The position numbers and the translations under genes were made by a program. Of a stretch of DNA of 52,264 nucleotides, positions 29,854-52,264 are shown in pieces; the first letter of the stretch is position 1; every line of letters starts with the position of its first letter. The stretch spans positions 1 through 52,264 of the forward strand of contig JAGAQV010000002.1 in the NCBI GenBank assembly GCA_017622555.1, written 5' to 3'. This DNA is from Clostridia bacterium. Its GTDB lineage: Bacteria > Bacillota > Clostridia > Oscillospirales > Acutalibacteraceae. The notes beneath the pieces are model-generated. The model was not told where the DNA came from. It made no database searches and was given only the letters and a program-made list of their open reading frames with translations.

Positions 29854-29854
29854 A

Positions 29855-29887: not shown

Positions 29888-29903
29888 GGTTTAAAATGTT
29901 ATA

Positions 29904-29932
29904 TTGCGTTATGCTGTAAATTTATTTATAAT
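29904..29932 (+). promoter_or_regulatory. Putative promoter of GH78 gene
   Basis: TTGCGT (29904-29909), 17 bp spacer, TATAAT (29927-29932). Confidence 0.6.
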
Positions 29933-29954
29933 AAAATGTAAAGGCGGTGTGCTT

Positions 29955-32419: not shown

Positions 32420-32468
32420 ATATGTCACCTCTATTTGTATTATACCATAGCGGTTATACTGTAGCAAT

Positions 32469-32636: not shown

Positions 32637-32640
32637 CGCA

Positions 32641-32685
32641 CCCAAGGGAGACACTCCATAAGGAAGTTGTCTCCCTTGGGCTTTT
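32641..32685 (+). terminator. Strong terminator beside copy A
   Basis: CCCAAGGGAGACA/TGTCTCCCTTGGG with a 14 nt loop, then CTTTT. Faces right. No complete gene lies just upstream on the plus strand, so its transcript is unclear. Confidence 0.65.
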
Positions 32686-32746
32686 GTAGTCAGCCAGAAT
32701 GATTGAATTGTAAGGATAATTTAATTCATAACGGAGGATTACGAAA

Positions 32747-32847
32747 ATGACAAACTTTATTGAAGAATTTTAACACAGGCAATTTAGATCCACAAGCCCG
32801 CAGTACAGGAAACGAAGATATTGTTCTGTGCGGGGTGTTGTTAAAAT
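32747..32847 (+). pseudogene. Remnant of a small ORF, frameshifted and truncated
   Basis: GGAGG RBS, ATG at 32747, reads 'MTNFIEEF' then stop. A shift into the next frame gives 'NTGNLDPQARSTGNEDIVL', together resembling the start of small clostridial proteins with an 'ELYxGNxxPxxR' N terminus (DUF6809-like, from memory). It collides with the 3' end of malQ. It could instead be chance. Confidence 0.35.
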
Positions 32848-36093: not shown

Positions 36094-36135
36094 TTATAAT
36101 TCTCCTTTTTGATTTTTTCGAAGGAAAGAAAGGAA

Positions 36136-36166
36136 GCGAGACAGGCGAAATCTTCGCCCGCCTCGC
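36136..36166 (-). other. Intercistronic hairpin after binding-protein gene
   Basis: GCGAG/CTCGC and GGCGAA/TTCGCC stems around a small internal loop. No T-run follows, so it is more likely an mRNA stabiliser that raises binding-protein over permease levels than a terminator. Confidence 0.5.
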
Positions 36167-36199
36167 CTTGCGTGGTTTATAACAATTCAATTATCGTTA

Positions 36200-37471: not shown

Positions 37472-37550
37472 TTAAATTTCCTCCTTCGAAAATTTCCGCA
37501 CAAAGTGCGTTTTTTAAAATAATTTATTTCCACACCAAGTGGTGTAAAAA

Positions 37551-38567
37551 TCAAGCTTTAGGTTTTGCAAGGGTGCCACCCTCACGCAAAGCTGTTTCAA
37601 GCTTCAGCTGACAGCTGCCGCACTCATCCTTAAGGACATTAAGCAAAACCTCTACCGCGCGTGTGCCCATCTGCTTACTGGGCTGCACAAGGGTTGTAAG
37701 TGTGGGGATAGTATATTTTGAAACCTGAATACCGTCTATCGCAATTAAAGAACAGTCGTCAGGCACATTTAGTCCCACAGTATGAAGCGCCTTTATCGCC
37801 GCAATTCCCATAGCATCCGCAATGGAAAAAATAGCAGTGAAATCCTTACCCTTTTTTAGAAAGCTTTCGGCAGCTTTAAAGGCGTCGTCTATATTAAAGC
37901 TTTTGGCCTCAATAATAAGGTCTTTATCTAATACTATACCGGCACTTTTAAGGGCATCACAATAACCCTTAAAACGAAGCTCACTTATCGAGTGGTCGTC
38001 GGTTGTACCAAGTAAAACAGCAATTTTTTTATGACCTAAATCGGTCAGTGTTTTTACTGCACGAAAGGCCTCGGCATAGTCGTCAATATAAACCGAAGAA
38101 TATGCCGTTTTTTTAAGACTGCCAAAGGTGTTTGTATATGTACAGCAGACAAACGGAACACCCAATGTGGCAATTTGCTCGGGTGTGTAATCAAACCGCC
38201 CGCCAAGAAAGATAAGTCCCTTCAATCTTTTAGACCTTACTAACGATGCGCCCTCGGCAAGCTCATCTTCGTTTGAACCGATTTGATGCATCACCATCGA
38301 ATAATCTGCCCGGCTCACCTCTTTTTCAATCGCATGTAAAACCGAATTTAAAAAAGGGTTTCCAACACCGCGCACCACAACGCCGATAGTGTCGGTTTGC
38401 ATTTTGCCCAAGTCCCTTGCGCTGCTGTTTGGGACATAGTGCAGCTCTTCAATAGCTTTTAACACCTTGGCGCGCACCTCTTCACGCACGTCGGGGTGAT
38501 TATTCAAAACACGGGAAATGGTGGTTATTGAAACACCACTGTATTTTGCAACGTCTTTAATGGTCAT
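37551..38567 (-). CDS. LacI-family repressor
   Basis: 338 residues. N-terminal HTH and hinge 'TIKDVAKYSGVSITTISRVL' and 'LHYVPNSSARDLGKM', then a periplasmic-binding-like effector domain. A 26 bp perfect palindrome lies 52 bp upstream, so it likely represses itself and the importer/malQ genes behind it. The effector is probably the imported sugar or a metabolite. Confidence 0.92.
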   Translation of the reverse strand: MTIKDVAKYSGVSITTISRVLNNHPDVREEVRAKVLKAIEELHYVPNSSARDLGKMQTDTIGVVVRGVGNPFLNSVLHAIEKEVSRADYSMVMHQIGSNEDELAEGASLVRSKRLKGLIFLGGRFDYTPEQIATLGVPFVCCTYTNTFGSLKKTAYSSVYIDDYAEAFRAVKTLTDLGHKKIAVLLGTTDDHSISELRFKGYCDALKSAGIVLDKDLIIEAKSFNIDDAFKAAESFLKKGKDFTAIFSIADAMGIAAIKALHTVGLNVPDDCSLIAIDGIQVSKYTIPTLTTLVQPSKQMGTRAVEVLLNVLKDECGSCQLKLETALREGGTLAKPKA

Positions 38568-39496: not shown

Positions 39497-39527
39497 CAAA
39501 AACGCACCCGTGTGGGTGCGTTTTTTT
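39497..39527 (-). terminator. Terminator of araC-type gene
   Basis: AACGCACCC-GTGT-GGGTGCGTT with T-run, overlapping the stop of the minus-strand regulator. Confidence 0.85.
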
Positions 39528-40359
39528 AATTAACCTTTTCAATCTCGTTTTGTAAGTATTTATTTGGAGATATACCACAAAACTTTTTAAAGGTCTTACT
39601 AAAGTGGTAAATGTCTGAAAACCTAAGTTCTTCAGCAATTTCGCCAATGGTATAATGTTCGTCTGAAAGGAGCAGCTGCTTTGCTTTTTCAATGCGGTGC
39701 TTTTGGCGGAAATTCATAGGGCTTTCGCCGCTGTATTCTTGGAAAAGCCGTCTGAAATAGCATTCACTGACACCACATTGTTCGGCAATTTCTGCTATTG
39801 ACAAATTGCTGTCTTGCTCTAAAAGCTCAATGCCTTTTCGTATGCAGGAAAACTTTTTACGTGTAACGCGCCTTTTTTGTTTTTGACAAACTGTTGCCAT
39901 TAGCTGATAAACTATTGAAATAACTTCAGGAATACAAACAATATTTTTGCGGAATTCTTCACAAAGCAAATCTAGATTTACGGCAATGGCGGGGTCAACA
40001 TTTTTAATACAAATTATAGGCTTTAAAATAGGGGCGATATCTTCTCCATCTCCGTCGGTCATTTGAAAATGCACAACTACAGTATCCTCTATACCGGTGT
40101 TTGTATCGTGAAATTCAACCGTATATTCCAACCCCTTTGCCATATAAGCCAGTTGGTTTTGTTCGGCCTTTAAAACGGTGCCGTCCTTGGAAGTTATAGT
40201 TGCGCTGCAGTTTTTAAACCACAATAAAGTATGTGAAATTTTGGGCTTGCCTATAGCGGAATAATAATTTCCTCTTGGTGCCCAATATTGCGTTTTAGCA
40301 ATTGGCTGGGTTATATAGAATTCGGTATTATACAGTTTTTCAAAGGAAATTATCTTCAT
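39526..40359 (-). CDS. AraC-family regulator of the adjacent catabolic operon
   Basis: About 277 residues. N-terminal cupin-like sensor (about 1-140) and a C-terminal double HTH ('LSIAEIAEQCGVSECYFRRL', 'YTIGEIAEELRFSDIYHFSK'). Start placed at the ATG 40359 with GAGGTG upstream; an earlier in-frame GTG lies within that RBS. Its promoter has an extended -10 (TGATATAAT on the minus strand). Divergent from the ten-gene operon, which it probably activates. Confidence 0.88.
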   Translation of the reverse strand: MKIISFEKLYNTEFYITQPIAKTQYWAPRGNYYSAIGKPKISHTLLWFKNCSATITSKDGTVLKAEQNQLAYMAKGLEYTVEFHDTNTGIEDTVVVHFQMTDGDGEDIAPILKPIICIKNVDPAIAVNLDLLCEEFRKNIVCIPEVISIVYQLMATVCQKQKRRVTRKKFSCIRKGIELLEQDSNLSIAEIAEQCGVSECYFRRLFQEYSGESPMNFRQKHRIEKAKQLLLSDEHYTIGEIAEELRFSDIYHFSKTFKKFCGISPNKYLQNEIEKVN

Positions 40360-40374
40360 ACAAATTTGCACCTC

Positions 40375-40512: not shown

Positions 40513-41922
40513 ATGCTCGATTACAAGGTTAAAATTGGCTTGGTTGCGATGCGACGCAACACTACCGACCGTCCGCGCGGAACATTTCTTACTTGGTATT
40601 CCGCCGAACAGCGTGGCAAAAAATTTGTAAATTATATTGAAGAAAATTTTACAAATGATATTGTTTCCTTTGTGGATAACAAGGGTATCGGCCACGAGGA
40701 TTTAGTTTTTGATGACAAATCTGCAGAAGAGGTTATTGAACGCTTTAAGGCTGAAAAGGTTGATGCAGTTATGATTATTAACTGCAACTTCGGTAATGAA
40801 GAAGCCGCAGCCGATATTGTTAAAGCTTTAGGTAAGCCTGCACTTTTGTGGGCGCCGCTTGATGATGAATATTATGTTGACGGTATGCGCCCAACCGATT
40901 CACAGTGTGGTCTTTTTGGCGTATCACGTCAGATGCAGCGTTATCATTTGCCCTTTTCACATCTTCCTTGCTGTAGGGTTGAAAGTGATGAATTTAAAGA
41001 GGGCTTTGAAAGCTTTGTGCGTGTAGCTTGCATGGTTAAAAACTTTACAGGCCTTCGTATTGGTCAAATTGGTAGCCGTCCTTATCCCTTCTTCTCGGTT
41101 ATCTGGAACGAGGGCGAGCTTATGGAAAAGTTTGGGGTAAAAATTACTGCCCTTAACTTTGCACACATTCAGGACCGAATGAAAACGGCCGCTGAAAAAT
41201 ACCCAGAAGAAATTAAGTATTATGAAGAATACATACTTAAAAATTACACCCTTGATGACCTTACCCCTAAATATGTAAACGGTATGGCAACAATGGTTGT
41301 AATGTATAAGAAGTTGTTTGAAGAATATAACCTTGACGTTATTTCGGCTGAGTGTTGGACAGCTACTCCCGTTATGTTCGACGGTTTAGCACCCTGCACC
41401 GTTTACGGTATTCTTAATGACCTTGGTTATATGATTTCTTGCGAAAGTGATATGCACTGCGCAATGACTATGGTGCTTTTAAAGTCTGCAACTCTTGGTA
41501 AAGGTAAGCCCTTGTTTGGTGAATTTACCGTTCGTCACCCCGAAAACAAAAATGCCGAGCTTTTATGGCATTGCGGTCCGTTCCCACTTTCCCAAAAGGC
41601 TAAAAGCGGAATTGATTCAACTGCACGTCTTGTTAATCAGCGTTCTTGGTTTAGGGCTAAAGATGGCACTTACACCGTTGCCCGTATGGACCAAGAAAGC
41701 GGCGATTATATGATTTTACCGCTTATTTGTAAAACAACCGAAGGTCCCCAAACCCACGGCACATATATTTGGGGCGAATTCGAAGATTTACAAAAGGTTG
41801 AAGACCGACTTATTGATGGCCCATACATTCACCATTTTGTTGAGATGGAAGGTGACTACAGAAAGGAAATTAACGAATTCTGTAAATACTTCCCCAACTT
41901 AAAAGTAGACAAAAATATTTAA
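40513..41922 (+). CDS. L-fucose/L-arabinose isomerase superfamily protein
   Basis: 469 residues. Shows the Rossmann-like N-terminal domains and C-terminal barrel of FucI/AraA-type metal-dependent aldose-ketose isomerases. Candidate metal ligands are Glu280 in 'VISAECWTATP' and Glu311/Asp313 in 'SCESDMHCAM', plus late histidines ('IHHFVEMEGD'). It is shorter than FucI (about 590), closer to the small uncharacterised branch. Expected to interconvert an aldose and ketose in the cytoplasm. First gene of an operon whose other members are oxidase, aldolase, kinases and NagA/NagB-like enzymes; substrate unknown. Confidence 0.75.
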   Translation: MLDYKVKIGLVAMRRNTTDRPRGTFLTWYSAEQRGKKFVNYIEENFTNDIVSFVDNKGIGHEDLVFDDKSAEEVIERFKAEKVDAVMIINCNFGNEEAAADIVKALGKPALLWAPLDDEYYVDGMRPTDSQCGLFGVSRQMQRYHLPFSHLPCCRVESDEFKEGFESFVRVACMVKNFTGLRIGQIGSRPYPFFSVIWNEGELMEKFGVKITALNFAHIQDRMKTAAEKYPEEIKYYEEYILKNYTLDDLTPKYVNGMATMVVMYKKLFEEYNLDVISAECWTATPVMFDGLAPCTVYGILNDLGYMISCESDMHCAMTMVLLKSATLGKGKPLFGEFTVRHPENKNAELLWHCGPFPLSQKAKSGIDSTARLVNQRSWFRAKDGTYTVARMDQESGDYMILPLICKTTEGPQTHGTYIWGEFEDLQKVEDRLIDGPYIHHFVEMEGDYRKEINEFCKYFPNLKVDKNI

Positions 41923-41936
41923 AAGGAGATTTAAAA

Positions 41937-43373
41937 ATGCAAATCCAAATGAACGAATTTTTATTCGCAATGATCTTAACCGAGCTTGAGGATGCGGTAG
42001 GCGTTGAAAACTGTTCTACCCGTGCAATTGATAAGGTTACACACAGTGTTGACTATTATTGGCTTTCACGTATGTGGGCAGACCGTGGTTGCCGTATGCC
42101 TGAAGCACAGTATGTTGTTTGTCCTAAGGACGCAACCGAGGTTTCAAAGGTTTTGAAAATTGCTAACTACTACAAGCTTCCTGTTACCACTTGGGGCGCA
42201 GGCGGCGGCACACAGGGTGGCGCTATTCCTGTTTGCGGTGGTATTATTCTTGATACTAAGAGAATGAACAAAATTTACGAGGTTAACACCGAAGGTATGT
42301 ACATAGAATGCGGTACAGGTGCTATTTATAAGCATATTGAATGGGCTGCAAATGAAGTTGGCAAGGCAACCATGCACTATCCCTCTTCGCTTACCTGCTC
42401 AACCGTTGGCGGCTTCTTGGCTCACCGCGGTATTGGTGTTGTTTCTACCAAATACGGTAAAATTGATGATATGGTGCTTAAAATGGAGGTTGTTCTTCCT
42501 AATGGCGATATCATTGAAACCTGTTCTGCTCCTAAGCATGCGGCAGGTCCTGACCTCAACCAAATTTTTATCGGCTCTGAAGGTACTTTAGGTATTATTA
42601 CAAAAGCCCAGATTCGTATTTTTGACCAACCTGAAGAACGCCGCTTCCGTGGTTTCTTATTCCAGGATATGAATGGCGCATTTAAGGCAAGCCGTGAGCT
42701 TTTACAAAAATTCAAGCCCTCGGTTATGCGTCTTTATGATGAGGCCGAAACTGCTTCGCTCATTAAGAAAATCGTTGGCGTTGAACGCAAGGGTGCGTTT
42801 ATGAACGTTGCTTATGAGGGTGTTCGGGAAATGGTAGAGGTTGAAGAAAAGATTCTTCTTGAAACCTTTGCAAAATACGGCGCAGAAGACCTTGGAAGCG
42901 AATACGGTGAAAAATGGTGGAAGGAAAAGATTACCTTCTTCTATCCCGGTCATATGATGGACATTCCCCAGTGCTTCGGTACAATGGATACTATCGCACC
43001 TTACGGCAAGATTGAAGAAATTTACTGGGCAATGAAGGAAGCAATTGAAACCAACTTCCCGCAAGCTAAATTTATTGCTCACTTCTCACACTGGTATGAA
43101 TGGGGCGCAATGGTTTACGACCGCTTTATTGTTGATGGTAAGGACGTGCCTCAGGACCCCGTTGAAGCACTTCGTTTGCACCAGGCAATTTGGACCTGCG
43201 GTGTTCGTACCGCTCTTGCACACGGCGGTGTTGTTAACGACCACCACGGCGTTGGTATTAAGCTTGGCCGTCTTATGAAGGAACAGTATGGCCCTGCAAT
43301 GCAGGTATTTGAAGGTATTAAGAAACAGTTAGACCCTAACGGCATTATGAATCCGTTCAAGCTTGGTCTTTAA
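41937..43373 (+). CDS. FAD-linked oxidase, GlcD/D-lactate dehydrogenase-like
   Basis: 478 residues of the VAO family. FAD-binding region: 'PVTTWGAGGGTQGGAIPVCG' (82-101), 'PSSLTCSTVGGFLAHRGIG' and 'IGSEGTLGII'. A C-terminal FAD-oxidase_C domain ends in 'HGGVVNDHHGVG', matching the metal-binding His region of lactate/glycolate oxidases. Oxidises a 2-hydroxy acid or similar alcohol. Followed by a GlcF-like FeS protein, with an Etf fusion at the end of the operon, suggesting a multi-subunit dehydrogenase rather than an oxygen-using oxidase. Confidence 0.88.
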   Translation: MQIQMNEFLFAMILTELEDAVGVENCSTRAIDKVTHSVDYYWLSRMWADRGCRMPEAQYVVCPKDATEVSKVLKIANYYKLPVTTWGAGGGTQGGAIPVCGGIILDTKRMNKIYEVNTEGMYIECGTGAIYKHIEWAANEVGKATMHYPSSLTCSTVGGFLAHRGIGVVSTKYGKIDDMVLKMEVVLPNGDIIETCSAPKHAAGPDLNQIFIGSEGTLGIITKAQIRIFDQPEERRFRGFLFQDMNGAFKASRELLQKFKPSVMRLYDEAETASLIKKIVGVERKGAFMNVAYEGVREMVEVEEKILLETFAKYGAEDLGSEYGEKWWKEKITFFYPGHMMDIPQCFGTMDTIAPYGKIEEIYWAMKEAIETNFPQAKFIAHFSHWYEWGAMVYDRFIVDGKDVPQDPVEALRLHQAIWTCGVRTALAHGGVVNDHHGVGIKLGRLMKEQYGPAMQVFEGIKKQLDPNGIMNPFKLGL

Positions 43374-43390
43374 TAGGAGGGTATAAAGTT

Positions 43391-44476
43391 ATGATAATGT
43401 CAGAAAAATGCAAACAACACGTTGATTCCTGCCGTTTTTGCTGGATGTGTCACCATATTTGCCCTATCGGTAATGCTACCGGTCAGGAAAGAAATACAGC
43501 CCGTGCACGCGCACTTGGTATTTCACTTGTAAACCGTGACGCTATGGAATTATCTGAAATTATGGATAATATTTACGAATGCTGCACCTGTGGCGCTTGC
43601 GTTCACGACTGCATCACCGGTTGGGATCCTGTAATGTTCACAAAGGAAACACGTTTACAGGCAGCCTTAGAAGGCGCAACTCCTGATTATATCAATGTTT
43701 TAATTGATAACTGCTTAGAAACCGGTAATGCTTACGGCAAGACCGCTACCTGCGAAACCCTTACTGCAGCAATTAAAGCACACGCTGATAAAAAGGACAC
43801 CCTTTTACTTTTGGGTGTTGACGCCAAGTTTATGGCTTGTAAACAGGCGCTTAAAGCAATTCAGGTGCTTGAAAAGGCAGGCGTTGATTTTAGCGTTTTA
43901 GAAAACGAAGCACCTACAGGCGCTCAGCTCGACTTCCTTATCGGTGCCGCAAACGAAACTAAAGAACAAATGGCAGCTTGCGCTAAAGTGCTTGATGATT
44001 ATAAAACTGTTGTTGTTTATGACCCGAATGATGCAAAGGCAATTAAGCAGCTTTATAAGGAATACGGTATTGAAACCAAGGCTAACGTTGTTACATACAC
44101 CTCTTTTGTTGCTTCTCTTTTGCGTGACGGCAAGCTTGAGGCTGTAAACAGCGGAAAGGCTGTTGTTTTCCAAGACCCTTATCAGCTTTCTCGCGATTTA
44201 GAGGAAACCGAAGAAGCACGTGAAATCATTATGTCTTATGCAGTTCTTGGTGAAATGCTCTTGAACCGTGCCGAAACTGTTTGGGCAGGTAACATTTTAA
44301 TGGCTCAGTATAAGCCCGAAGTAATTAAGCTTGTTGCTGAAAGAAGAATCTTTAACGCAACCTCTATTGGAGCAGACACAATCGTTACGGCTTGTGTTGG
44401 CGAATACGTTGCACTTAATAACGTGGAACAAGACAAGGTTAAGATTATTTCTATTGAAGACCTTATTTTAGGTTAA
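43391..44476 (+). CDS. GlcF-like iron-sulfur protein with degenerate CCG domain
   Basis: 361 residues. Two [4Fe-4S] sites at the N terminus: C14-x2-C17-x2-C20-x3-C24 ('CRFCWMCHHIC') and C64-x2-C67-x2-C70-x3-C74. The C-terminal part has the outline of a cysteine-rich CCG domain, but the cysteines are lost: 'DPYQLSR' stands where DPCHLGR is usual, 'VWAGNILM' where CCG is usual. Only 'VTACVGEYVAL' keeps one Cys. It probably relays electrons between the FAD oxidase and the Etf fusion. RBS AGGAGGG; second in-frame ATG at 43397 is possible. Confidence 0.82.
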   Translation: MIMSEKCKQHVDSCRFCWMCHHICPIGNATGQERNTARARALGISLVNRDAMELSEIMDNIYECCTCGACVHDCITGWDPVMFTKETRLQAALEGATPDYINVLIDNCLETGNAYGKTATCETLTAAIKAHADKKDTLLLLGVDAKFMACKQALKAIQVLEKAGVDFSVLENEAPTGAQLDFLIGAANETKEQMAACAKVLDDYKTVVVYDPNDAKAIKQLYKEYGIETKANVVTYTSFVASLLRDGKLEAVNSGKAVVFQDPYQLSRDLEETEEAREIIMSYAVLGEMLLNRAETVWAGNILMAQYKPEVIKLVAERRIFNATSIGADTIVTACVGEYVALNNVEQDKVKIISIEDLILG

Positions 44477-44488
44477 GAGGTATAAAAA

Positions 44489-45328
44489 ATGTTAGTAAAT
44501 TTAAAACAAATTATAGGTATGGCAGAGGAAGGCGGCTATTGTATTCCGGCTTTCAACGTTTACAATATTGAAACCGTTATGGGTGTTATTAAGGCTGCTG
44601 AAGAAGAAAAGGCACCTGTTATTATTCAGGTTTACCCCCGTCTTATAAATGAAGAGGTTGGTTATTATTTGGCACCTGTAGTTCTTGCGGCAGCTAAAAA
44701 GGCAAGCGTTCCTGTTTGCTTCCACCTTGACCACGGCCCCTCTGAAGCAGAGGTACAAAAAATTCTTTATTGGGGCGCTACCGGCATTATGTATGACGGT
44801 TCGGTTCATCCATTTGAAGAAAACATTAAAAATACAAAGCACATTGTTGATATTTGCAACGCTATTGATGTTGGTGTTGAAGGCGAGCTTGGTCATATTG
44901 GCAGTGTTAACGATGACGCTATGGAAGAATATACTGACCCCGCTGAAGCCGGTGAATTTGTAAAGAAAACAGGCGTTTGCTGTTTGGCAGTTTTAATCGG
45001 TAATGCGCACGGTCACTATAAAAAGACACCTTGCCTTGATATTGAGAGAGTAAAGGCTATTCGTGAAGCTACAGGCGGAACACCGCTTGTTTTACACGGC
45101 GGCTCAGGCATTCCTGACGATCAGGTTAAAGCCGCAATAAAGGCGGGTATCCGTAAAATGAACATCGGTACCGACGTTTGCTGTGCTTTTGCCGAGGGTA
45201 CTCTTGAAACCTTGCAAGACCCAAATCGTTCTCTTGCAATTGACTTATTTATGAAAAAGCCGATTGATACCGTTAAAGCACTTGCTATTGAAAAAATACG
45301 TCTTGTTGGTGCGAACGGTAAAGCTTAA
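44489..45328 (+). CDS. Class II (zinc) ketose-bisphosphate aldolase, IolJ/GatY/FbaA-like
   Basis: 279 residues. Catalytic/zinc residues: Asp81-His82 in 'FHLDHGPS', Glu131 in 'VEGELG', His in 'GNAHGHYK', His203 in 'LHGGSG', phosphate loop 'KMNIGTD'. Cleaves a phosphorylated ketose to DHAP plus an aldehyde. Its position before a PfkB kinase and IolB-like protein recalls IolJ (DKGP aldolase), but fuculose-, tagatose- or fructose-phosphate specificity cannot be excluded. Confidence 0.88.
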   Translation: MLVNLKQIIGMAEEGGYCIPAFNVYNIETVMGVIKAAEEEKAPVIIQVYPRLINEEVGYYLAPVVLAAAKKASVPVCFHLDHGPSEAEVQKILYWGATGIMYDGSVHPFEENIKNTKHIVDICNAIDVGVEGELGHIGSVNDDAMEEYTDPAEAGEFVKKTGVCCLAVLIGNAHGHYKKTPCLDIERVKAIREATGGTPLVLHGGSGIPDDQVKAAIKAGIRKMNIGTDVCCAFAEGTLETLQDPNRSLAIDLFMKKPIDTVKALAIEKIRLVGANGKA

Positions 45329-45335
45329 TTAAATT

Positions 45336-45366
45336 ATACAACACCGTCTTTTTAGGCGGTGTTGTA
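45336..45366 (+). other. Intercistronic hairpin
   Basis: ACAACACCG/GCGGTGTTGT stem between aldolase and PfkB genes, with no T-run after it. Likely an mRNA processing or stability element within the operon. Confidence 0.45.
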
Positions 45367-45389
45367 ATCGCACAGAAAGGACAGTTGTT

Positions 45390-46301
45390 ATGTCTAAAAT
45401 TGTTGGTATAGGTGCAAATGTATTTGATACCCTCTATAATATTCCTACCTACCCGACTGAAGATACTAAAATGAGAGCCACTTCCAGCAAAACTGCAGGC
45501 GGCGGTCCTGTTGCAACGGGACTTGTTGCGGCACAAAAGCTTGGTGAGGACACTGCATATATCGGTGTTTTATCGGATGATAACGGCGGTAAATTTTTAA
45601 AAGAAGATTTTATAAAGTACGGTGTTAATACCGATTTAATTGAAGTGAAATCGGGTTACCGTTCCTTTGCATCGGTTTTATGGCTTTGTGCTGACACAGC
45701 AACCCGTACCTGTGTTTTTGATAAGGGCGATTTGCCGCCATTGGTATTGAATAATGAACAAAAAAAGGCTATAATGGAAGCGGAAATTTTAATGGTTGAT
45801 GGCAACGAAATGTCGGCAGCGGTTGAAGGCGCTAAAATTGCCAAGGAAAACGGCACCAAGGTGCTTTATGACTGTGGTGGTTTGTATGAAGGCGTTGAAA
45901 GGCTTTTGGCGCTTACCGATATTATGATTCCGTCTGAAGAATTTTCCCTCGGTCATACAGGCTGTAAAACAGCCGAAGAGGCTGCTAAAAAGTTATACGA
46001 AACCTATTCGCCTGAAGTAGTGGTTATCACACAGGGCAAAAAGGGCGGTATAATTTACGACGGTGAAAAGATTACCGCTTATCCCATTTATCCTGCAGTT
46101 GTGGTTGATTCTAACGGCTCTGGCGATGTGTTCCACGGCGCATTTGCTGCGGCGGTAGTAAAGGGATATAATTATCTTAAATGCTGTCATTTTTCAAGTG
46201 CCGTTTCGGGACTTAAGTGTACAGGTATCGGTGCTCGTGAAAGTGTGCCTAATTTCGAAACCACAAAAAACTATTTAAAGGAGAACGGTTATGAGTTATA
46301 A
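45390..46301 (+). CDS. PfkB-family sugar kinase, IolC-like position
   Basis: 303 residues of the ribokinase/PfkB family. N-terminal glycine motif 'TAGGGPVATGLVAAQKLG' and C-terminal signature 'DSNGSGDVFHGAF' with catalytic Asp246. Phosphorylates a sugar or sugar acid with ATP. Located between an IolJ-like aldolase and an IolB-like isomerase, so a 2-deoxy-5-keto-gluconate-type substrate is suggested by context only. Overlaps the next gene by 11 bp. Confidence 0.88.
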   Translation: MSKIVGIGANVFDTLYNIPTYPTEDTKMRATSSKTAGGGPVATGLVAAQKLGEDTAYIGVLSDDNGGKFLKEDFIKYGVNTDLIEVKSGYRSFASVLWLCADTATRTCVFDKGDLPPLVLNNEQKKAIMEAEILMVDGNEMSAAVEGAKIAKENGTKVLYDCGGLYEGVERLLALTDIMIPSEEFSLGHTGCKTAEEAAKKLYETYSPEVVVITQGKKGGIIYDGEKITAYPIYPAVVVDSNGSGDVFHGAFAAAVVKGYNYLKCCHFSSAVSGLKCTGIGARESVPNFETTKNYLKENGYEL

Positions 46302-47091
46302 TTATAAAAAGGCTTATGTTTCTGCAAAGGGATATACCCCCATTTGTAAAATTGGTGAATGCTCACTTAAAAAACTCGAATTTGGTATTATTGAACTATC
46401 CAAAGGCGAAAGCCTTTCCTTTGATACAAAGGATAAGGAAACCGCATTTATTATGCTTCAGGGTCACTGCGACGTTAAAACAGGTGATTTAAAATGGGAA
46501 AATGTTGGTAACAGAATGACCGTTTTTGAAAACCGCAAGGCTGAAAGCTTTTATATGCCAATAGAAACTGTTTGCGAAATTACAGCTCTTGACGATATTA
46601 AAATTGCTGTTTGCGCAACACCCGTTAAGGAAAAAACCGAGCCGCAGGTGCTTCGTGAAGACCACGTTGTATTAAAGGTTTTAGGTGAAGTGCCTTTTCA
46701 GCGTGAAACCAGCTTTATTATTGACGGCAACTCTAATGCAAAAATTCTCACCATTGGTGAATGTTACTGTACCGAAGGTAACTGGGCAGGTTTCCCACCT
46801 CACAAGCATGATGAGGACAATATGCCTACCGAATGTATTGCCGAGGAAATTTATTACTTCCTTTTCGACCCCAAGCAAGGCTTTGCAGTTCAGTGCCTTT
46901 ATACCGCTGACGGTGAAATAGATGAGGCTTACAGAGTTAAAAACGACGAGCTTGTAGAGTTCCCCATAGGTTATCACACCACCGTTGCTACCCCCGGCTA
47001 TCAGACCTATTTCTTGTGGCTTATGGCAGGCGATTATCAGGGCTTTAACAGAAGCAACGACCCCGAACACGACTGGATAGCAAATAGATAA
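46291..47091 (+). CDS. IolB-like 5-deoxy-glucuronate isomerase family protein
   Basis: 266 residues, bicupin. IolB hallmarks: 'EGNWAGFPPHKHDEDN' (metal His), 'AEEIYYFLFDPKQGFAVQCL', 'FPIGYHTTVATPGYQTYFLW' and the C-terminal 'NDPEHDWI'. IolB converts 5-deoxy-glucuronate to 2-deoxy-5-keto-gluconate. IolG, IolE and IolD are not in the window, so its true substrate may be a related uronate. Translationally coupled to the kinase. Confidence 0.87.
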   Translation: MSYNYKKAYVSAKGYTPICKIGECSLKKLEFGIIELSKGESLSFDTKDKETAFIMLQGHCDVKTGDLKWENVGNRMTVFENRKAESFYMPIETVCEITALDDIKIAVCATPVKEKTEPQVLREDHVVLKVLGEVPFQRETSFIIDGNSNAKILTIGECYCTEGNWAGFPPHKHDEDNMPTECIAEEIYYFLFDPKQGFAVQCLYTADGEIDEAYRVKNDELVEFPIGYHTTVATPGYQTYFLWLMAGDYQGFNRSNDPEHDWIANR

Positions 47092-47107
47092 TAAAGGAAA
47101 GAAACCT

Positions 47108-48577
47108 ATGAAATATCTTTTGGGAATTGACTTTGGTGGCGGCGCCTCGAAAGCTACCTTGATTGATGAAAAGGGTAATATTATTGCTGAAAATACGGTT
47201 GAATATCCTACCCTTTACCCCGAAAATGGTGCTTGTGAACAAAATCCACAGGATTGGATAAACGCGCTGTGTGAAAACAGCAAGGCGTTACTTTCAAAAA
47301 GTGGCATAAATGCCTGTGATATTCTTGCAATTGCGCTTGATTCAGCAACCCATACCTCACTTGTTTGTGATAAGGATTTTAAACCCTTACATAATGCAAT
47401 GCATTGGACAGATACCCGTTCCCGTAAAGAAGCTGATGCTTTAAGGGAAAGTGAAGGGGAAGAAATTTTCAAAAAAACCTTTCACAAGCCTGACACTATC
47501 TGGACTCTCCCTCAGCTTATTTGGCTTAAAACCAACAAGCCCGAAATTTTCAGTAAAACAAGGTACATTTTCTTTGAAAAGGATTATGTCCGTTACTTTT
47601 TAACCGACGTTTTCTGCACCGATTATATCGAAGCACAGGGAAGTATGCTTTATGACTGTGTTAATGGCTGCTGGGACAGAAAACTTTGTGAAATGGCAGG
47701 TATAACGGTTGATATGCTGCCGCCCATAAAAAACCCGACCGATATTATAGGCAAGGTTACCGAAAAGGCAGCAAAGGAAACAGGATTAGCAGTTGAAACA
47801 CCTGTTATTTGTGGCACGACCGACACGGTAATGGAGGTTTTTGCTTCGGGTGCGGTTAAAAAGGGCGATGTTACGGTTAAGCTTGCAACTGCAGGTCGCA
47901 TTTGTGTTATAACCGATAAGCCCTATCCTGACAGGCATTTGGTTAATTATTCGCATATTTCAAACGGACTTTGGTACCCTGGCACAGCGACAAAATCCTG
48001 CGCGGCATCATATAGATGGTATCGTGATACCTTTGGCGGCGAATATAAGGATTTGGACGATGGCGCAAAGGAAATTCCAATTGGTTGTGACGGGCTGATT
48101 TTCCATCCATATTTAAACGGTGAATTAACCCCTTACGCTGACCCTATGCTTTGCGGAAGCTTTACGGGGGTACGCGCAACACATACTAAGGCGCACTTTA
48201 CCCGTGCCGTTTTAGAGGGTGTTGCATACTCACTTCTTGATAGCAAAGCTTATCTTGATTCGCTGAATATTCCTTATAATACAGTTGCAACCGCAATTGG
48301 CGGTGGCACCAAGGGTACGCTTTGGCGTCAAATGATTGCTGACGCACTTGGCATTGCACTTAAAACCGTTAAAAGCAGCGATTCGTCCTTTGGCTCGGCA
48401 ATGCTTGCGGGTATTGCAGTGGGTGTGTTTAAGGATGCTGGAGATGCAGTAGAAAAATGCGTTAGGGAAGTGGATATAACATATCCCAACCCCGAAAATA
48501 CTCAAAAATACCGTAAAGTATTTGAAGATTATAAAAGAATTCACGATGCATTAGCATCGATATATCAAAACCGATAA
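47108..48577 (+). CDS. FGGY-family carbohydrate kinase
   Basis: 489 residues, normal for xylulokinase/fuculokinase/gluconokinase relatives. N-terminal ATPase fold 'YLLGIDFGGGASKATLIDE', 'HWTDTRSRKEAD', and C-terminal 'AIGGGTKGTLWRQMIADALG'. Phosphorylates a polyol or ketose. It is the second kinase of the operon, implying either two phosphorylatable parts of the substrate or two substrates. Confidence 0.87.
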   Translation: MKYLLGIDFGGGASKATLIDEKGNIIAENTVEYPTLYPENGACEQNPQDWINALCENSKALLSKSGINACDILAIALDSATHTSLVCDKDFKPLHNAMHWTDTRSRKEADALRESEGEEIFKKTFHKPDTIWTLPQLIWLKTNKPEIFSKTRYIFFEKDYVRYFLTDVFCTDYIEAQGSMLYDCVNGCWDRKLCEMAGITVDMLPPIKNPTDIIGKVTEKAAKETGLAVETPVICGTTDTVMEVFASGAVKKGDVTVKLATAGRICVITDKPYPDRHLVNYSHISNGLWYPGTATKSCAASYRWYRDTFGGEYKDLDDGAKEIPIGCDGLIFHPYLNGELTPYADPMLCGSFTGVRATHTKAHFTRAVLEGVAYSLLDSKAYLDSLNIPYNTVATAIGGGTKGTLWRQMIADALGIALKTVKSSDSSFGSAMLAGIAVGVFKDAGDAVEKCVREVDITYPNPENTQKYRKVFEDYKRIHDALASIYQNR

Positions 48578-48591
48578 AGGAGAAAATGAAA

Positions 48592-49440
48592 ATGGATATC
48601 AATTTAATTCCCCCCGAAGAATTAGGAAAAGGCAGTAACATCAAGCTTAACGTGTGTGAACACGAGGTTGATATGTACTGGAAAGTGGCTATTGAAGTCC
48701 TTGAACTAATCGAGGAAAATAACCGCAAGGGCGAGCCTACCGTTATGGTTGTACCTTATGGCCCTATCGGTCCTTACGCACGTATGGCTGAGCTCGTTAA
48801 TAAATACCGCATTTCACTTAAAAACTGCGTATTTATGAATATGGACGAATACCTTGATGAAAACGGTAAGTATATTGATTATAATCATCCGCTTTCTTTC
48901 CGTGGCGGAATGGACCGCACCTTCTATTCAAAGGTTGATGATGAGCTTAACGTTCTTCCTGAAAACCGCATTTTCCCCGACCCCGAAAATCCAGGTAAAA
49001 TAATGGAAACAATTGAAAAGTATGGCAAGCTAGATATGGTATTCGGTGGCGTTGGTATTAACGGTCACTACGCCTTTAACGAACCGCCTGAAGCATGGGA
49101 AAAGGTTACCCCTGAAGAGTTTGCTAACCGCCCCACACGTGTGCTTAAAATTGCCCGTGAAACCCGCACAATTAACGCATTTATGAATTGCGGCGCCAAT
49201 ATTGAAGCTATTCCCGAAAACTGCATTACTGTTGGTATGAAGGAAATTTTTAAGGCAAAGAAAATTCGTATGTGTATGCCAAGAGACTGGAATGCTGCAG
49301 CACTTCGCAAGGTTTTACACGGTCCTGTTACAGCATCAGTTCCTTGTTCACTTTTCCAAAATCATCCTGACGCACTTTTGTATGCTGCGGCAGTTGCTAC
49401 AAAATGTCCCGTTTCGGAAATTCGAGTTTACAATAAATAA
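48592..49440 (+). CDS. NagB-like (glucosamine-6-phosphate deaminase family), altered active site
   Basis: 282 residues. Retains 'MNMDEYLD' (Asp85, matching E. coli Asp72) and 'GVGINGHYAFNEP'. In that motif the catalytic Asp141 of NagB is Asn157, while His159 and Glu164 are kept. The phosphate loop G-x-T-G-G-T-P is replaced by 'VPYGPIGPYARM'. It is therefore unlikely to be a standard GlcN6P deaminase; it may act on a different amino or keto sugar. Start at the second ATG (48592), spaced 9 nt from GGAG. Stop overlaps the nagA-like start. Confidence 0.8.
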   Translation: MDINLIPPEELGKGSNIKLNVCEHEVDMYWKVAIEVLELIEENNRKGEPTVMVVPYGPIGPYARMAELVNKYRISLKNCVFMNMDEYLDENGKYIDYNHPLSFRGGMDRTFYSKVDDELNVLPENRIFPDPENPGKIMETIEKYGKLDMVFGGVGINGHYAFNEPPEAWEKVTPEEFANRPTRVLKIARETRTINAFMNCGANIEAIPENCITVGMKEIFKAKKIRMCMPRDWNAAALRKVLHGPVTASVPCSLFQNHPDALLYAAAVATKCPVSEIRVYNK

Positions 49441-50627
49441 TGAAAACCTTAATTAAAAATGCCGCCGTCGTTTTATGCGACGGCGTGCGCACATCTGATG
49501 TGTTGATTGAAGGCAGTAAAATTGCTGATATAAATTATAACGGCGAAATTACTGCGGATATGGAAATTATAAACGCCGACGGAAATTATCTACTCGCCGG
49601 CTTTGTTGATTTGCACGTTCACGGAGGTGGAGGTGCGGATTTTATGGATGCTACCACCGACGCCTTTGAAACGGCAGTTAAAGCGCATTTAAAGCACGGC
49701 ACGACCTTGCTTTATCCGACTGCGGTAGCTGCAAGCTATGACGATTTGTGCGACTTTTTAAACGCTTATAACCAGTTTAAAGCCACAAGTGAATATGCCG
49801 CTTTGACCGACGGTGTTCACCTTGAAGGACCCTACTTTTTCGGCGCAACACAGCTAAGCCGTGGGGCGCAAAAGGCGGACGTTTTGCGACTTCCCGATAT
49901 GGACGAGGTTGAAAAGCTGCTAAAGGTTGCAAATGGTAGCATTGCCCGTTGGGATGCATCTCCCGAACTTGAAGGGGCTTGCGAATTTGCCGAAAAAATG
50001 CGTGATAACGGTATTGTTTGTGCCGTAGCACACACCGACGCCACCGCACCCGAAGCCCTTAAGGGCTTCCAGCACGGTTTTAGCCATGTTACTCATTTTT
50101 ATAATGCAACAAGTCTTCACCGCAAGCGTGAGCAAACCGTTTACGCAGGTGTTGTTGAAGCAACTTATCTTGATGATAACGTTACGGTTGAGCTTATTGG
50201 CGATGGTTGTCATATTCCTAAGGAAACCTTTTTATTAACCCTTAAAATTAAGGGTAAGGATAAGCTTTCGGTTATAACTGACGGTATGCGAATTGCGGGT
50301 ACAAATATGCAAAGCGGCAAGCTTGGCAGCCTTAAAAACGGTAGCGAGGTTATAGTTGACAGCGGTGTTGCAAAACTCAGCGATAAAGTGTCCTTTGCGG
50401 GCAGTATTGCCACAATGGACAGGTGCCTTCGTGTGCTTTGTAACGATTTTGGAATGGACCTGCCCACTGCATCATGTATGCTGTCTCTCACCCCTGCAAA
50501 GCGTATGGGTGCGGATAAAGCAAAGGGAAGTATTGCTGTTGGCAAGGATGCCGATTTGGTTATAGTCGATAAAGGCCTTAATGTAAAGCAGGTTATATTC
50601 GGCGGTAAAATTATTGGAGAAAACTAA
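49440..50627 (+). CDS. NagA-like N-acetylglucosamine-6-phosphate deacetylase family
   Basis: 395 residues of the amidohydrolase superfamily. Metal and catalytic residues: His59/His61 in 'DLHVHGGGG', Glu129 in 'HLEGPYF', His198 in 'AHTDAT', His219 in 'THFYNAT', catalytic Asp281 in 'VITDGMR'. Removes acetyl from an N-acetyl amino sugar phosphate. The substrate-contact loop after HLEGP differs from NagA (no G-A-H). Coupled to the NagB-like gene (TAATG). Confidence 0.88.
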   Translation: MKTLIKNAAVVLCDGVRTSDVLIEGSKIADINYNGEITADMEIINADGNYLLAGFVDLHVHGGGGADFMDATTDAFETAVKAHLKHGTTLLYPTAVAASYDDLCDFLNAYNQFKATSEYAALTDGVHLEGPYFFGATQLSRGAQKADVLRLPDMDEVEKLLKVANGSIARWDASPELEGACEFAEKMRDNGIVCAVAHTDATAPEALKGFQHGFSHVTHFYNATSLHRKREQTVYAGVVEATYLDDNVTVELIGDGCHIPKETFLLTLKIKGKDKLSVITDGMRIAGTNMQSGKLGSLKNGSEVIVDSGVAKLSDKVSFAGSIATMDRCLRVLCNDFGMDLPTASCMLSLTPAKRMGADKAKGSIAVGKDADLVIVDKGLNVKQVIFGGKIIGEN

Positions 50628-50630
50628 CGT

Positions 50631-52016
50631 ATGAAAATAGTTGTTTGCATTCGGCAAGGGCTTGATGGAGAAATCAACCCATTTGATGCTTGTGCTTATG
50701 AGGAAGCGCTTAAAATTGGCGGCGAAATTACCCTTTTAAGTATGGGCCCTTTAACCGCAAGGGACTTTTTGTTAAGACTTACCCGTTTGGGTGCAAAAAA
50801 GGCAATACTTTTGTCTGACAAGGCTTTTGCCGGCGCGGACACCCTTGCAACCGCTTATACCTTGGCGCTTGCAATAGAAAAATTGAAGCCAGATTATATT
50901 TTTTGCGGTCGCCAAACCTTAGTTGGTGATACCGCTCAAACAGGACCTATGCTGTCGGTTTATGCAAAAACCAATATAATTACCAATGTAATGGGTGTTT
51001 TAGCGGCAAATGAAAGCGAAATCACTTGTAAAACACGTGATTATGGTGAAATAACCGCAACTGTGCCGGCACTTTTAACGGTTGAGCGCATTAATAATTT
51101 GCGGCTTCCATCAATCCGTTCCAAAATGGGTGAAGTCGAGGTTTGGACAGCAAAGGATATAAATGCCGATTTAAACCGCACAGGTCTTACAGGTTCACCT
51201 ACAAGGGTTCTTGAAACTAAAGAAAATTTGTCAGGCAGGCGTAGGTGCAAATATATAACTGCGGATGAATTATCCACCGTTATTTCCGAATCACTTAAGA
51301 AAAGCACTGAAAAGGTTGTAGAAAATACGACGGACGGCGAAAAGCTTAAAAAGGTTTTTTGTGTTGGTCAAGCACCGCTTGAATATGCTAAAGCCGTGTG
51401 CGAAAATCCTACCGTTATTTCGCTTGATACGGTTGATAAAATGGCCGAATTTATAAAAAACGAAAAGCCCGATGCTGTAATTTGGGGTTCGGACAGTCTT
51501 TCAAAGCAAATCTCCGCACAGGTGGCGGCAATGCTTAATTTGGGCCTTTGTGCCGACTGCACGTCACTTCAAACTGATGGCCAGATTTTATATATGGTAC
51601 GCCCCGCACTTGCGGGCAGTGTGGTTGCAAAAATCAAGAGTATTACCACACCCGCAATGGCAACTGTGCGTACAACTCAAAATGATATGGCAAATATTCT
51701 TGTTGCCGCAGGCTTTGGTGTAAAAGAAAACCTTGACAAAGTAAAAACATTTGCCGAAAGCATTGGCGCCGATTTAGTAACAACACGAAAAATGGTTGAT
51801 AACGACTTTTTTCCTTATGAAAAACAGGTTGGCCTTACAGGTAAGACTGTTGCCCCCTCGGTTTATATTGCATTGGGCGTAGCAGGTGTTGTACACCACA
51901 TTGTTGGTATGCAGCGTGCTGGTACGGTTATTGCTATTAATCCCGATAAAGATGCACCTATTTTCGATTATGCCGATTACGGTATAATTGCGAATTTTGA
52001 GGATATTAAGTTTTAA
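50631..52016 (+). CDS. Single-chain electron transfer flavoprotein (EtfB-EtfA fusion)
   Basis: 461 residues. Residues 1-200 are EtfB: 'CIRQGLDGEINPFDACAYEE' and the nucleotide/FAD loop 'CGRQTLVGDTAQTGP' (92-106). Residues 240-461 are EtfA with a shortened N-terminal domain: 'ADCTSL', 'RPALAGSV' (324-331), FAD motif 'QVGLTGK' (399-405) and 'AINPDKDAPIFDYADYG'. Normal EtfB plus EtfA total about 580-650 residues, so it is compact. Starts 3 bp after the nagA-like stop. Probably takes electrons from the GlcD/GlcF-like pair encoded upstream. Confidence 0.88.
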   Translation: MKIVVCIRQGLDGEINPFDACAYEEALKIGGEITLLSMGPLTARDFLLRLTRLGAKKAILLSDKAFAGADTLATAYTLALAIEKLKPDYIFCGRQTLVGDTAQTGPMLSVYAKTNIITNVMGVLAANESEITCKTRDYGEITATVPALLTVERINNLRLPSIRSKMGEVEVWTAKDINADLNRTGLTGSPTRVLETKENLSGRRRCKYITADELSTVISESLKKSTEKVVENTTDGEKLKKVFCVGQAPLEYAKAVCENPTVISLDTVDKMAEFIKNEKPDAVIWGSDSLSKQISAQVAAMLNLGLCADCTSLQTDGQILYMVRPALAGSVVAKIKSITTPAMATVRTTQNDMANILVAAGFGVKENLDKVKTFAESIGADLVTTRKMVDNDFFPYEKQVGLTGKTVAPSVYIALGVAGVVHHIVGMQRAGTVIAINPDKDAPIFDYADYGIIANFEDIKF

Positions 52017-52040
52017 AAAGCACCCTTTTGGGTGCTTTTT
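52015..52040 (+). terminator. Terminator of the ten-gene operon
   Basis: AAAAGCACCC-TTTT-GGGTGCTTTT stem and T-run directly after the Etf fusion. Confidence 0.88.
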
Positions 52041-52080
52041 AAAATAATGGAAAATATATATTGCTGGTGTTAATTATAAA

Positions 52081-52109
52081 TTGACAAAATAAAATGTAAA
52101 TGGTATAAT
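52081..52109 (+). promoter_or_regulatory. Perfect-consensus promoter for an RNA gene
   Basis: TTGACA (52081-52086), 17 bp spacer, TATAAT (52104-52109). No RBS or ORF follows; the transcript begins with tRNA-like sequence. Confidence 0.88.
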
Positions 52110-52130
52110 GTGCCTACAATTTAATATTTG

Positions 52131-52264
52131 CCTCCTTAGTTAAATGGATATAGGAACCTCACCCATTAGCAAAATCAAAGATTTTGAATGGGTACCGAGA
52201 ACCCTGCGGCTATCGCCGAATAAACCCGTTTGATGTTTCGGGTAAAAACAACTTTTAAGATATA
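52131..52264 (+). ncRNA. tRNA-Arg-like 5' fragment running into a structured RNA, incomplete at window edge
   Basis: The first 23 nt (52131-52153) match the acceptor and D-loop start of clostridial tRNA-Arg: GCCTCCT, TA, GTTAAATGGATATA. The D-stem closing sequence is then missing. What follows is ACCCATT...AATGGGT around AAAATC/GATTTT, CGGC-TATC-GCCG and ACCCG...CGGGT hairpins. A consensus promoter precedes it. It may be an interrupted tRNA gene, a tRNA-derived RNA, or a fragment; the window ends before the 3' part. Confidence 0.4.

Follow-up and report, generated by a model that had tools for sequence, protein, structure and literature searches.

A conserved seven-gene core in a catabolic operon of Clostridia and its tentative reading as a sugar-breakdown route with exchangeable entrances

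Several described systems share parts with the operon reported here. The tagatose/N-acetylgalactosamine (Aga/Kba, Gat) pathway likewise combines a deacetylase, a deaminase, a PfkB kinase, and a class II ketose-bisphosphate aldolase within a single operon. The sulfo-EMP2 pathway (SqvD, SqvB, SqiK, SqiA) has in common with it a FucI-family isomerase, a class II aldolase, and the DUF4867 protein found in relatives of the operon, and the lower myo-inositol pathway (IolB, IolC, IolJ) has an adjoining IolB/KduI-family cupin, PfkB kinase, and class II aldolase. A PfkB kinase also accompanies a class II aldolase in the ydj cluster of E. coli (YdjH, YdjI). Alkyl-DHAP synthase (ADPS) and LctD/Etf-type dehydrogenases resemble the operon's flavoprotein, which is of the FAD_binding_4/FAD-oxidase_C type and carries the HHG motif of ADPS. 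Like Etf-linked dehydrogenases, the flavoprotein has FeS and Etf partners; ADPS works without FeS/Etf. Apiose-linked FucI-transketolase-FGGY clusters of Listeria and Monoglobus contain a relative of the isomerase (32%) near an FGGY kinase.

In the window (the whole stretch of DNA that was analyzed, 52,264 nucleotides), 10 tightly spaced genes occupy positions 40513 to 52016 of the plus strand and are associated with a divergent AraC regulator. An earlier note had described these genes as a catabolic operon, and the comparisons below confirm that it is real and conserved. The features are as follows:

39526..40371, minus strand: AraC-family regulator, divergent (HTH_18, 77 bits)
40513..41922, plus strand: AraA/FucI-fold aldose-ketose isomerase, putative input module 1
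41937..43373, plus strand: alkyl-DHAP-synthase-like FAD dehydrogenase, core (best PDB matches ADPS, LDHD, LctD)
43391..44476, plus strand: 2x[4Fe-4S] protein, C-terminal part without CCG motifs, core (Fer4_8, Fer4_17)
44489..45328, plus strand: class II ketose-phosphate aldolase, core (PF01116, 296 bits; above the TIGR00167 cutoff)
45390..46301, plus strand: PfkB-family ketose kinase, core (best PDB match sulfofructose kinase)
46291..47091, plus strand: IolB/KduI-family cupin isomerase, core (PF04962, 237 bits; TIGR04378, 228 bits)
47108..48577, plus strand: FGGY carbohydrate kinase, XylB-like, core (FGGY_N, 206 bits)
48586..49440, plus strand: NagB-fold amino-sugar deaminase without phosphate site, putative input module 2 (fold match to NagB structures)
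49440..50627, plus strand: NagA-like N-acetyl sugar deacetylase, putative input module 2 (TIGR00221, 247 bits)
50631..52016, plus strand: EtfB-EtfA fusion, core (ETF, 176 bits; ETF_alpha, 82 bits)
52017..52042, plus strand: terminator-like hairpin and T run directly 3' of the operon (read by eye)

The hairpin is absent from the output of an automated scan. As the earlier note had said, the window's copy of the operon has no transporter gene, and it matches no pathway for which a description was found when one open-access library was searched for the gene combination and for parts of it. Taken as a whole, the interpretation given there is partly supported. We tentatively read the operon as an undescribed anaerobic route of sugar breakdown with exchangeable entrances, in which galactose-type sugars or N-acetylgalactosamine (GalNAc) would be converted to tagatose (probability of about 0.36).

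Seven genes form a nearly constant core: those for the flavoprotein, the 2x[4Fe-4S] protein, the class II aldolase, the PfkB kinase, the IolB-like cupin, the FGGY kinase, and the Etf fusion. All seven are present in 47 of the 50 loci whose sequence was long enough (from a wider set of 80), and a wider sample of the class has the full core in eight of ten loci with a flavoprotein of at least 83%. The flavoprotein is found in all 50 loci by construction because the search was built on it. The FeS protein, the FGGY kinase, and the cupin (two sequence classes counted together) are also present in all 50; the aldolase and the PfkB kinase are each present in 48. The Etf fusion, in 49, belongs to the core, which agrees with an earlier suggestion of oxidation coupled to Etf. 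Around this core the isomerase (32 loci), the NagB-like protein (7), and the NagA-like protein (7) come and go. The expectation that the 10 families are kept together thus held for the seven-gene core and failed for these three.

Loci differ in other ways as well. Neither the isomerase nor NagAB is present in 11 of 50 loci; for one of these (L073, genome G052) the isomerase is located elsewhere in the genome, together with NagA, NagB, and a GH123 gene some 66–71 kb from the core. Genome G025 (97% complete) has the core, its best NagB reaches only 43%, and a search for the isomerase gave no match. NagAB occurs without the isomerase in the available stretch of seven loci (L075, L081, L102, L107, L109, L195, and L211). 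In one of them, variant L195, Gfo/Idh and TIM-barrel genes are in the isomerase's place, and variant L196 carries a TRAP transporter, a type typical of acids. DUF4867 is present in 23 of 50 loci and an AraC homolog is detectable in 13. Unannotated minus-strand proteins of ∼280 aa make up another cluster, seen in 39 of the 80 loci.

These patterns bear on whether the operon could combine two pathways, a tagatose-type route (isomerase or NagAB, FGGY, PfkB, and aldolase) and an unrelated oxidation (flavoprotein, FeS protein, Etf, and cupin). A simple tagatose route requires the first set alone, and two of the 50 loci lack both the aldolase and the PfkB kinase, whose roles general glycolytic enzymes might fill. 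However, the FGGY kinase, cupin, flavoprotein, FeS protein, and Etf fusion occur all together in 49 of 50 loci, and in Mesorhizobium the FGGY kinase and flavoprotein adjoin without other core genes. Both findings tie the FGGY kinase to the oxidation, and a coincidence of two pathways is unlikely.

The protein earlier called an FAD oxidase is, by its matches and motifs, an alkyl-DHAP-synthase-type flavoprotein. Its best PDB matches are ADPS (138 bits), LDHD (121 bits), and LctD (104 bits), and HxSH and HHG motifs are present in 101 of 101 sequences. Of the ADPS HHH active-site motif, all 101 keep the second and third H, and the first position holds D (90 sequences), H (8), or E (3). Assignment as a GlcD/D-hydroxyacid dehydrogenase was rejected, with a score of 191 against a cutoff of 568 bits and absence of the GDGN and EHG motifs of E. 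coli GlcD. The FeS protein keeps eight cluster cysteines in 92–93 of 93 sequences and, unlike E. coli GlcF, has no CCG motif; the Etf fusion was assigned by Pfam/NCBIfam models only. Across families the flavoprotein is 83–88% identical, compared with 69–74% for LepA. Recent horizontal transfer is unlikely to be the cause because its fourfold-degenerate sites are strongly diverged, being only 28–54% identical in eight loci of other families (26–52% for neighboring genes). The mean at these sites is about 41% for the flavoprotein and about 34% for the FeS and Etf genes, and this slightly greater likeness may reflect an older exchange of the flavoprotein gene.

The NagB-like protein has, judged by alignment, lost its phosphate-binding residues. 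Of the positions we take to bind phosphate in NagB, the G43-T44 loop is absent from all 13 sequences, and another residue stands in place of K208 in all 13 and of R172 in 12. The catalytic D72, H143, and E148 are kept in all 13; at D141 every sequence has N, a feature shared with AgaI. The NagA-like protein exceeds the TIGR00221 cutoff (247 vs. 226 bits) and keeps E131, H195, H216, and the catalytic D273 in 13 of 13 sequences. At R227 of REPG, presumably phosphate-binding in NagA, R is aligned in 9 of 13; H251 is present in all 13, and the PG of REPG is lost in all 13. GH123 adjoins NagB-NagA in eight of nine NagB loci fetched from relatives, and NagB-NagA with GH123 is also beside the core of genome G042. 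The loss of phosphate residues from NagB and the frequent adjacency to GH123 point to unphosphorylated GalNAc as a probable input of this module, in line with the earlier proposal of an N-acetyl amino sugar. No PTS gene is among the ten proteins annotated around the NagB-NagA/GH123 loci, which include one ABC permease. A NagB of at least 66% is present in 14 of 149 relatives. Of these 14, 12 carry the flavoprotein, compared with 15 of the remaining 135 (Fisher p = 8e-9, ignoring kinship of genomes).

Beside the core, no glycoside hydrolase family is widely recurrent. GH4 accounts for 2 of 92 flanking proteins, and clusters of other hydrolases are few (GH2 in 4 of 80 loci; GH20, GH36, and GH3 in 2 of 80 each). 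No common polysaccharide system was found among the 25 commonest families listed, the commonest having 4 of the 92 proteins. These 92 were hand-trimmed, with removal of short and some already annotated proteins, from a random draw of 144 among 183 collected proteins of 140–800 aa, so that hydrolases longer than 800 aa fall outside the scan.

The cupin, PfkB kinase, and aldolase had been taken for the IolB-IolC-IolJ lower block, with an IolB-type intermediate. An inositol-type pathway through 5-deoxyglucuronate or 2-deoxy-5-ketogluconate to malonate semialdehyde is consistent with the score of the cupin, which is above the cutoff of the IolB model TIGR04378 (228.5 vs. 205 bits). But the cupin has QC..YT and YFLW where two inositol-operon IolBs have QR..YT and YYLN, and core cupins fall outside those references in a tree of modest support in which few branches are fully supported, the inositol-operon IolBs number only two, and KduI and L196 form long branches. 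The PfkB kinase scores 88 bits against the IolC model TIGR04382 (cutoff 300). It is 29% identical to the sulfofructose kinase YihV, 24% to YdjH, and 24% to an IolC, and its best PDB match is sulfofructose kinase (110.7 bits vs. 54.7 for a putative IolC-type protein). The aldolase is nearest to E. coli YdjI (42%; 35% to KbaY) among four references that included no IolJ. Nor does the operon offer a source of the deoxy group. An inositol-type route is very improbable, and the residues and scores of the cupin and kinase do not support the earlier assignment of an Iol lower block and intermediate.

Some of the same comparisons are compatible with a uronate-type route, in which the cupin would turn a hexuronate, or an amino-hexuronate once NagA/NagB had acted, into a keto-acid, the PfkB kinase would phosphorylate C1, and the aldolase would yield DHAP and tartronate semialdehyde. 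The nearest of four cupin references (36%) is an IolB-like protein beside tagaturonate reductase and altronate dehydratase, and W243 of the cupin is common to that protein and KduI, but the tree does not group the cupin with this reference. Of four main-class cupins compared, three have I, F, or Y at the K/R position of the RGYHP motif and one, L130, has R, which disfavors the route. The annotation of YdjI as an octuluronate-1-phosphate aldolase, the TRAP transporter of L196, and a UxaC gene a few kb from GH123-NagBA on the same contig in two genomes favor it. On the other hand, UxaC is already present in the window's genome, which also weakens galacturonate as sole substrate, and such a route explains neither the isomerase nor the FGGY kinase nor the linkage to GH123. 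We consider a uronate route doubtful. The aldolase is also 36% and 38% identical to two other aldolases of the window's genome, and it has R51 in 80 of 82 sequences where the four references have G, G, G, and V.

The PfkB kinase resembles sulfofructose kinase and has K27 in 75 of 76 sequences, which raises the possibility of a sulfo-EMP2-type pathway for sulfoquinovose, sulfofucose, or a similar sulfosugar. It would comprise an SqvD-like isomerase, an SqvB-like DUF4867, a sulfofructose-type kinase, and a class II aldolase; the flavoprotein would oxidize the C3 sulfonate. At the positions that we take to bind sulfonate in sulfofructose kinase, however, the operon's kinase has D111 or V109, depending on alignment, for N109 and N139 for R138. 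The isomerase matches the AraA/FucI superfamily fold over its full length; VIA-align was run for this protein only, disregarding a long tail of unrelated Rossmann-like chains, and AlphaFold models of the isomerase and the NagB-like protein confirm their folds but not their specificities. The isomerase's substrate cannot be read from a fold match of 13–16% identity, and its only NCBIfam match is the sulfoquinovose isomerase model NF048012 (SqvD/SftI), with 107 bits where the cutoff is 700. The core genes include neither a sulfoquinovosidase nor a sulfolactaldehyde enzyme, and NagA/NagB do not fit. DUF4867, common beside the operon, occurs in sulfo-TAL/EMP2/TK clusters according to PMC11968277 and PMC9594981; PMC11968277 also assigns most of the largest DUF4867 group to FucI-FGGY contexts that have no assigned substrate. 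Altogether, a sulfosugar pathway is quite improbable.

In the tagatose model that we prefer, the substrate and order of steps are inferred from the observed gene content, conservation, family membership, residue losses, and GH123 linkage. The isomerase, in relatives often accompanied by DUF4867 and a mutarotase, would convert an unphosphorylated aldose, perhaps D-galactose, to a ketose. The NagA-like deacetylase and NagB-like deaminase would convert unphosphorylated GalNAc to D-tagatose, acetate, and ammonia, so that both entrances would converge on the same ketose, D-tagatose. The FGGY kinase, which scores just below the cutoff of the XylB model TIGR01312 (372.7 vs. 380.25 bits), is predicted to phosphorylate it. 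The ADPS-type flavoprotein would oxidize a phosphorylated sugar intermediate and pass electrons to the 2x[4Fe-4S] protein and then to the Etf fusion, the cupin would move a carbonyl, the PfkB kinase would add a second phosphate, and the aldolase would split the product into DHAP and a C3 unit. The points at which oxidation and cupin isomerization take place are the most inferential part of the model. A specific version, possible if somewhat doubtful, has unphosphorylated galactose-type sugars and GalNAc feeding in, the ketose phosphate made by FGGY oxidized by the flavoprotein, FeS protein, and Etf, and the cupin isomerizing the resulting dicarbonyl sugar before aldol cleavage.

Counted in favor of the tagatose model are the core linkage, the NagB co-occurrence, the GH123 linkage, the loss of the NagB phosphate site, the lack of PTS genes around the NagB-NagA/GH123 loci, the seven loci with NagAB and no isomerase, the remote input genes of G052, the joint loss of aldolase and PfkB kinase, the ADPS type of the flavoprotein, and the Mesorhizobium pair. 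Counted against it are the 11 input-less loci, genome G025, the arginine (9 of 13 sequences) and H251 that NagA retains, the L196 (TRAP) and L195 variants, and the lack of a widely recurrent glycoside hydrolase. Moreover, breakdown through tagatose could by itself dispense with the cupin and the flavin/FeS/Etf set, although these genes are some of the least variable across loci. Lack of a Leloir pathway as an explanation of the operon found no support; a gene resembling galactokinase occurs, scoring below the model cutoff (147 vs. 227 bits).

The core flavoprotein is present at an identity of at least 82% in 26 of 391 genomes across the class, including the window's own, a Clostridia genome related to herbivore-gut bacteria. 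Counted by titles, about 47 of 80 named records are from ruminant or rabbit samples. A pathway with no assigned function may thus carry real carbon flux in the guts of herbivores. It would give context to the FucI-DUF4867-FGGY clusters that PMC11968277 notes with no substrate and to a flavoprotein of alkyl-DHAP-synthase type whose conservation exceeds that of LepA, and it offers a testable, unphosphorylated way to use GalNAc. If oxidation does follow the FGGY kinase, Clostridia would gain redox energy, possibly through electron confurcation, from a hexose before glycolysis.

Relative to the closest known systems, the operon differs both in parts that are absent and in parts that are extra. Compared with the Aga/Kba and Gat pathways, it has no PTS and its deaminase has no phosphate site, while an FGGY kinase, an isomerase, a cupin, and the flavin/FeS/Etf set are extra. 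Unlike in sulfo-EMP2, the isomerase is far below the model cutoff, the core is without SQase and sulfolactaldehyde enzymes, and NagAB inputs and a redox set are present; the PfkB kinase is nearest to the sulfofructose kinase of sulfo-EMP, not of sulfo-EMP2. The cupin and kinase fall outside their Iol counterparts by residues, tree, or score, and IolG/E/D/A are lacking. With the ydj cluster, the kinase is only 24% identical and other ydj genes have no counterpart in the core. In contrast to ADPS and LctD, the flavoprotein is without hydroxyacid motifs and the first H of HHH is replaced, mostly by D. Finally, where the apiose-linked clusters have a transketolase and apiosidase-like genes, the operon has an aldolase, a cupin, and a redox set.

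The earlier note described a ten-gene, one-strand operon with a divergent AraC regulator, and this arrangement is present in the window; its gene labels are broadly backed by Pfam and NCBIfam.

40513-52016, + strand: ten ORFs, spaced -11 to +61 nt in the window sequence
141 nt upstream of the operon, divergent: AraC gene
past the stop of the last operon gene: terminator-like hairpin

No description of this cluster was found in one open-access library, with preprints and most subscription papers outside the scope of the search. The region upstream of the operon, 27505-38567, encodes GH2 and rhamnosidase-type proteins, a GH77 amylomaltase alongside an ABC sugar importer and, by eye, a LacI-like regulator. 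At 52081-52264, a perfect TTGACA-17-TATAAT promoter match, with TG preceding the second hexamer, reads into a stretch at the window edge, where tRNA and Rfam searches gave no match.

Conservation centers on seven genes. A flavoprotein alignment (A1) served as the query against named genomes, and the best 80 of 279 relatives were kept; about 47 of these 80 have record titles naming ruminant or rabbit samples (counted by eye). Fifty loci extend 9.5 kb or more past the flavoprotein gene on its downstream side (the other 30 were excluded as too short). All 50 have the FeS protein, cupin, and FGGY kinase; 49 have Etf, 48 have aldolase and PfkB, and the set is complete in 47. The exceptions are L061 and L126, without aldolase and PfkB, and L078, without Etf, but the L078 stretch stops within FGGY. 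By tblastn matches anywhere in the locus, the isomerase is in 32 of 50, DUF4867 in 23, a mutarotase in 14, NagB and NagA in seven each, and an AEC transporter in four; isomerase and NagAB are both absent from 11. Of the proposed co-occurrence of ten families, the seven-gene core therefore stands, and the constancy of isomerase, NagB, and NagA does not. We consider it unlikely that the operon is split between two routes that merely share it.

In a class sample of 391 genomes, 26, counting the window's, have the flavoprotein at ≥82% identity and three more have matches of 33-53%. Ten of the high-identity loci were fetched, and eight of them carry the full seven-gene set; the stretch of L212 stops early, and L205, judged by its gene order, duplicates the record L126 and has neither aldolase nor PfkB. 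In the phylum sample, 8 of 398 match; besides the window's, two do so at 57-70% and five at 33-37%. In the close relative G064 (L055 and L034), aldolase residues 1-218 continue in frame into FGGY residues 197-489 with PfkB and cupin absent between, either a deletion or an assembly error. Upstream of the operon, two genomes carry a gene for a protein of 980 aa (L083:5940-8885 and L090:5956-8898), possibly a defence gene; in L083 its N terminus matches a ThsB/TIR-like domain (31 bits).

Among solved structures, the flavoprotein matches alkyl-DHAP synthases best (138 bits), ahead of LDHD (121) and LctD (104). HxSH and HHG are in 101/101 sequences; E. coli GlcD's GDGN/EHG motifs are missing. Compared with the window's copy, the flavoprotein of ten genomes from other families has 83-88% identity, versus 69-74% for LepA of the same genomes (70% and 61% in G160). 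Fourfold-degenerate sites in eight other-family loci are 28-54% identical in its gene and 26-52% in neighboring genes, whose proteins are 38-82% identical. Because these sites are nearly as diverged as those of its neighbors, the flavoprotein seems strongly constrained and not a recent arrival by transfer; it may have been exchanged at an older date. On a Mesorhizobium plasmid, FGGY (38%) and flavoprotein (41%) genes adjoin with the other core genes absent, which would tie the oxidation to the kinase product.

The input genes vary. NagB-NagA occurs without an isomerase in the stretch in L075, L081, L102, L107, L109, L195, and L211, and with one in the window, L055, L057, L122, and L206. NagB of ≥66% identity is found in 14 of 149 relatives, 12 of which carry the flavoprotein, as do 15 of the 135 relatives lacking such a NagB (P = 8e-9, a statistic that ignores relatedness). 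GH123, a beta-N-acetylgalactosaminidase family, directly adjoins NagB-NagA in eight of nine fetched NagB loci (L226, L227, and L229-L234, not L228), a set that omits L235 and L236 (43-45% NagB homologs), G018, and G030. GH123 identity rests on Pfam in two cases and on 45-50% identity to the L038 copy in the others. In G042, NagB-NagA and GH123 adjoin the core; in the window and in G064, a near relative, the pair lies within the core without GH123; in G052, isomerase, NagA, NagB, and GH123 cluster some 66-71 kb away. Genome G025 (97% complete) counts against a simple picture of input modules, since it has the core, a NagB of 43% only, and no match in an isomerase search.

A second isomerase paralog (69-70%) at G000:C26:16000-28245 (L032) neighbors DUF4867, SDR, PIG3-type reductase, EamA transporter, Gfo/Idh, and amidohydrolase genes, and in G001 (L047) the core is immediately preceded by homologs of most of this gene set. 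More distant isomerase relatives (32%) in Monoglobus and Listeria plasmid records (L163, L164) have a split transketolase, an FGGY kinase, and apiosidase-like genes as neighbors, which suggests that a FucI-type isomerase takes part in an apiose route there.

The gene set fits a route in which an unphosphorylated aldose or GalNAc would be converted to a ketose, phosphorylated twice, and cleaved by the aldolase, with an oxidation and carbonyl shift somewhere between ketose formation and cleavage. With every enzyme specificity predicted, we put its probability at slightly above one in three. PfkB is 29% identical to sulfofructose kinase and 24% to both YdjH and an IolC; the aldolase, with R51 in 80/82 sequences, is 42% identical to YdjI and 35-38% to KbaY and the genome's two other aldolases. 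A sulfosugar pathway of the sulfo-EMP2 type is, in our view, quite improbable. The cupin, of the IolB/KduI family, comes in two classes within the same operon type, one 74-97% and the other 31-41% identical to the window's copy, so its step seems to be required and the protein itself replaceable. A uronate-type route is the strongest alternative, yet a doubtful one. On a Priestia megaterium plasmid (L166), an IolB-like gene accompanies tagaturonate reductase and altronate dehydratase, and UxaC is absent from the annotation of that 12.8-kb stretch; its product is a candidate cupin-type galacturonate isomerase.

The NagB-like proteins keep D72, H143, and E148, which are catalytic in NagB, and lack G43-T44 (13/13), R172 (12/13), and K208 (13/13), which form its phosphate site. 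The NagA-like proteins keep E131, H195, H216, and D273; the PG of REPG is gone, but an R aligns with R227 in 9/13, so these proteins may still bind phosphate. Their positions 59 and 61 are H, where E. coli NagA has Q and N, and E. coli AgaI, unlike the NagB-like proteins, keeps a TGAT loop and has lysines at 172 and 208.
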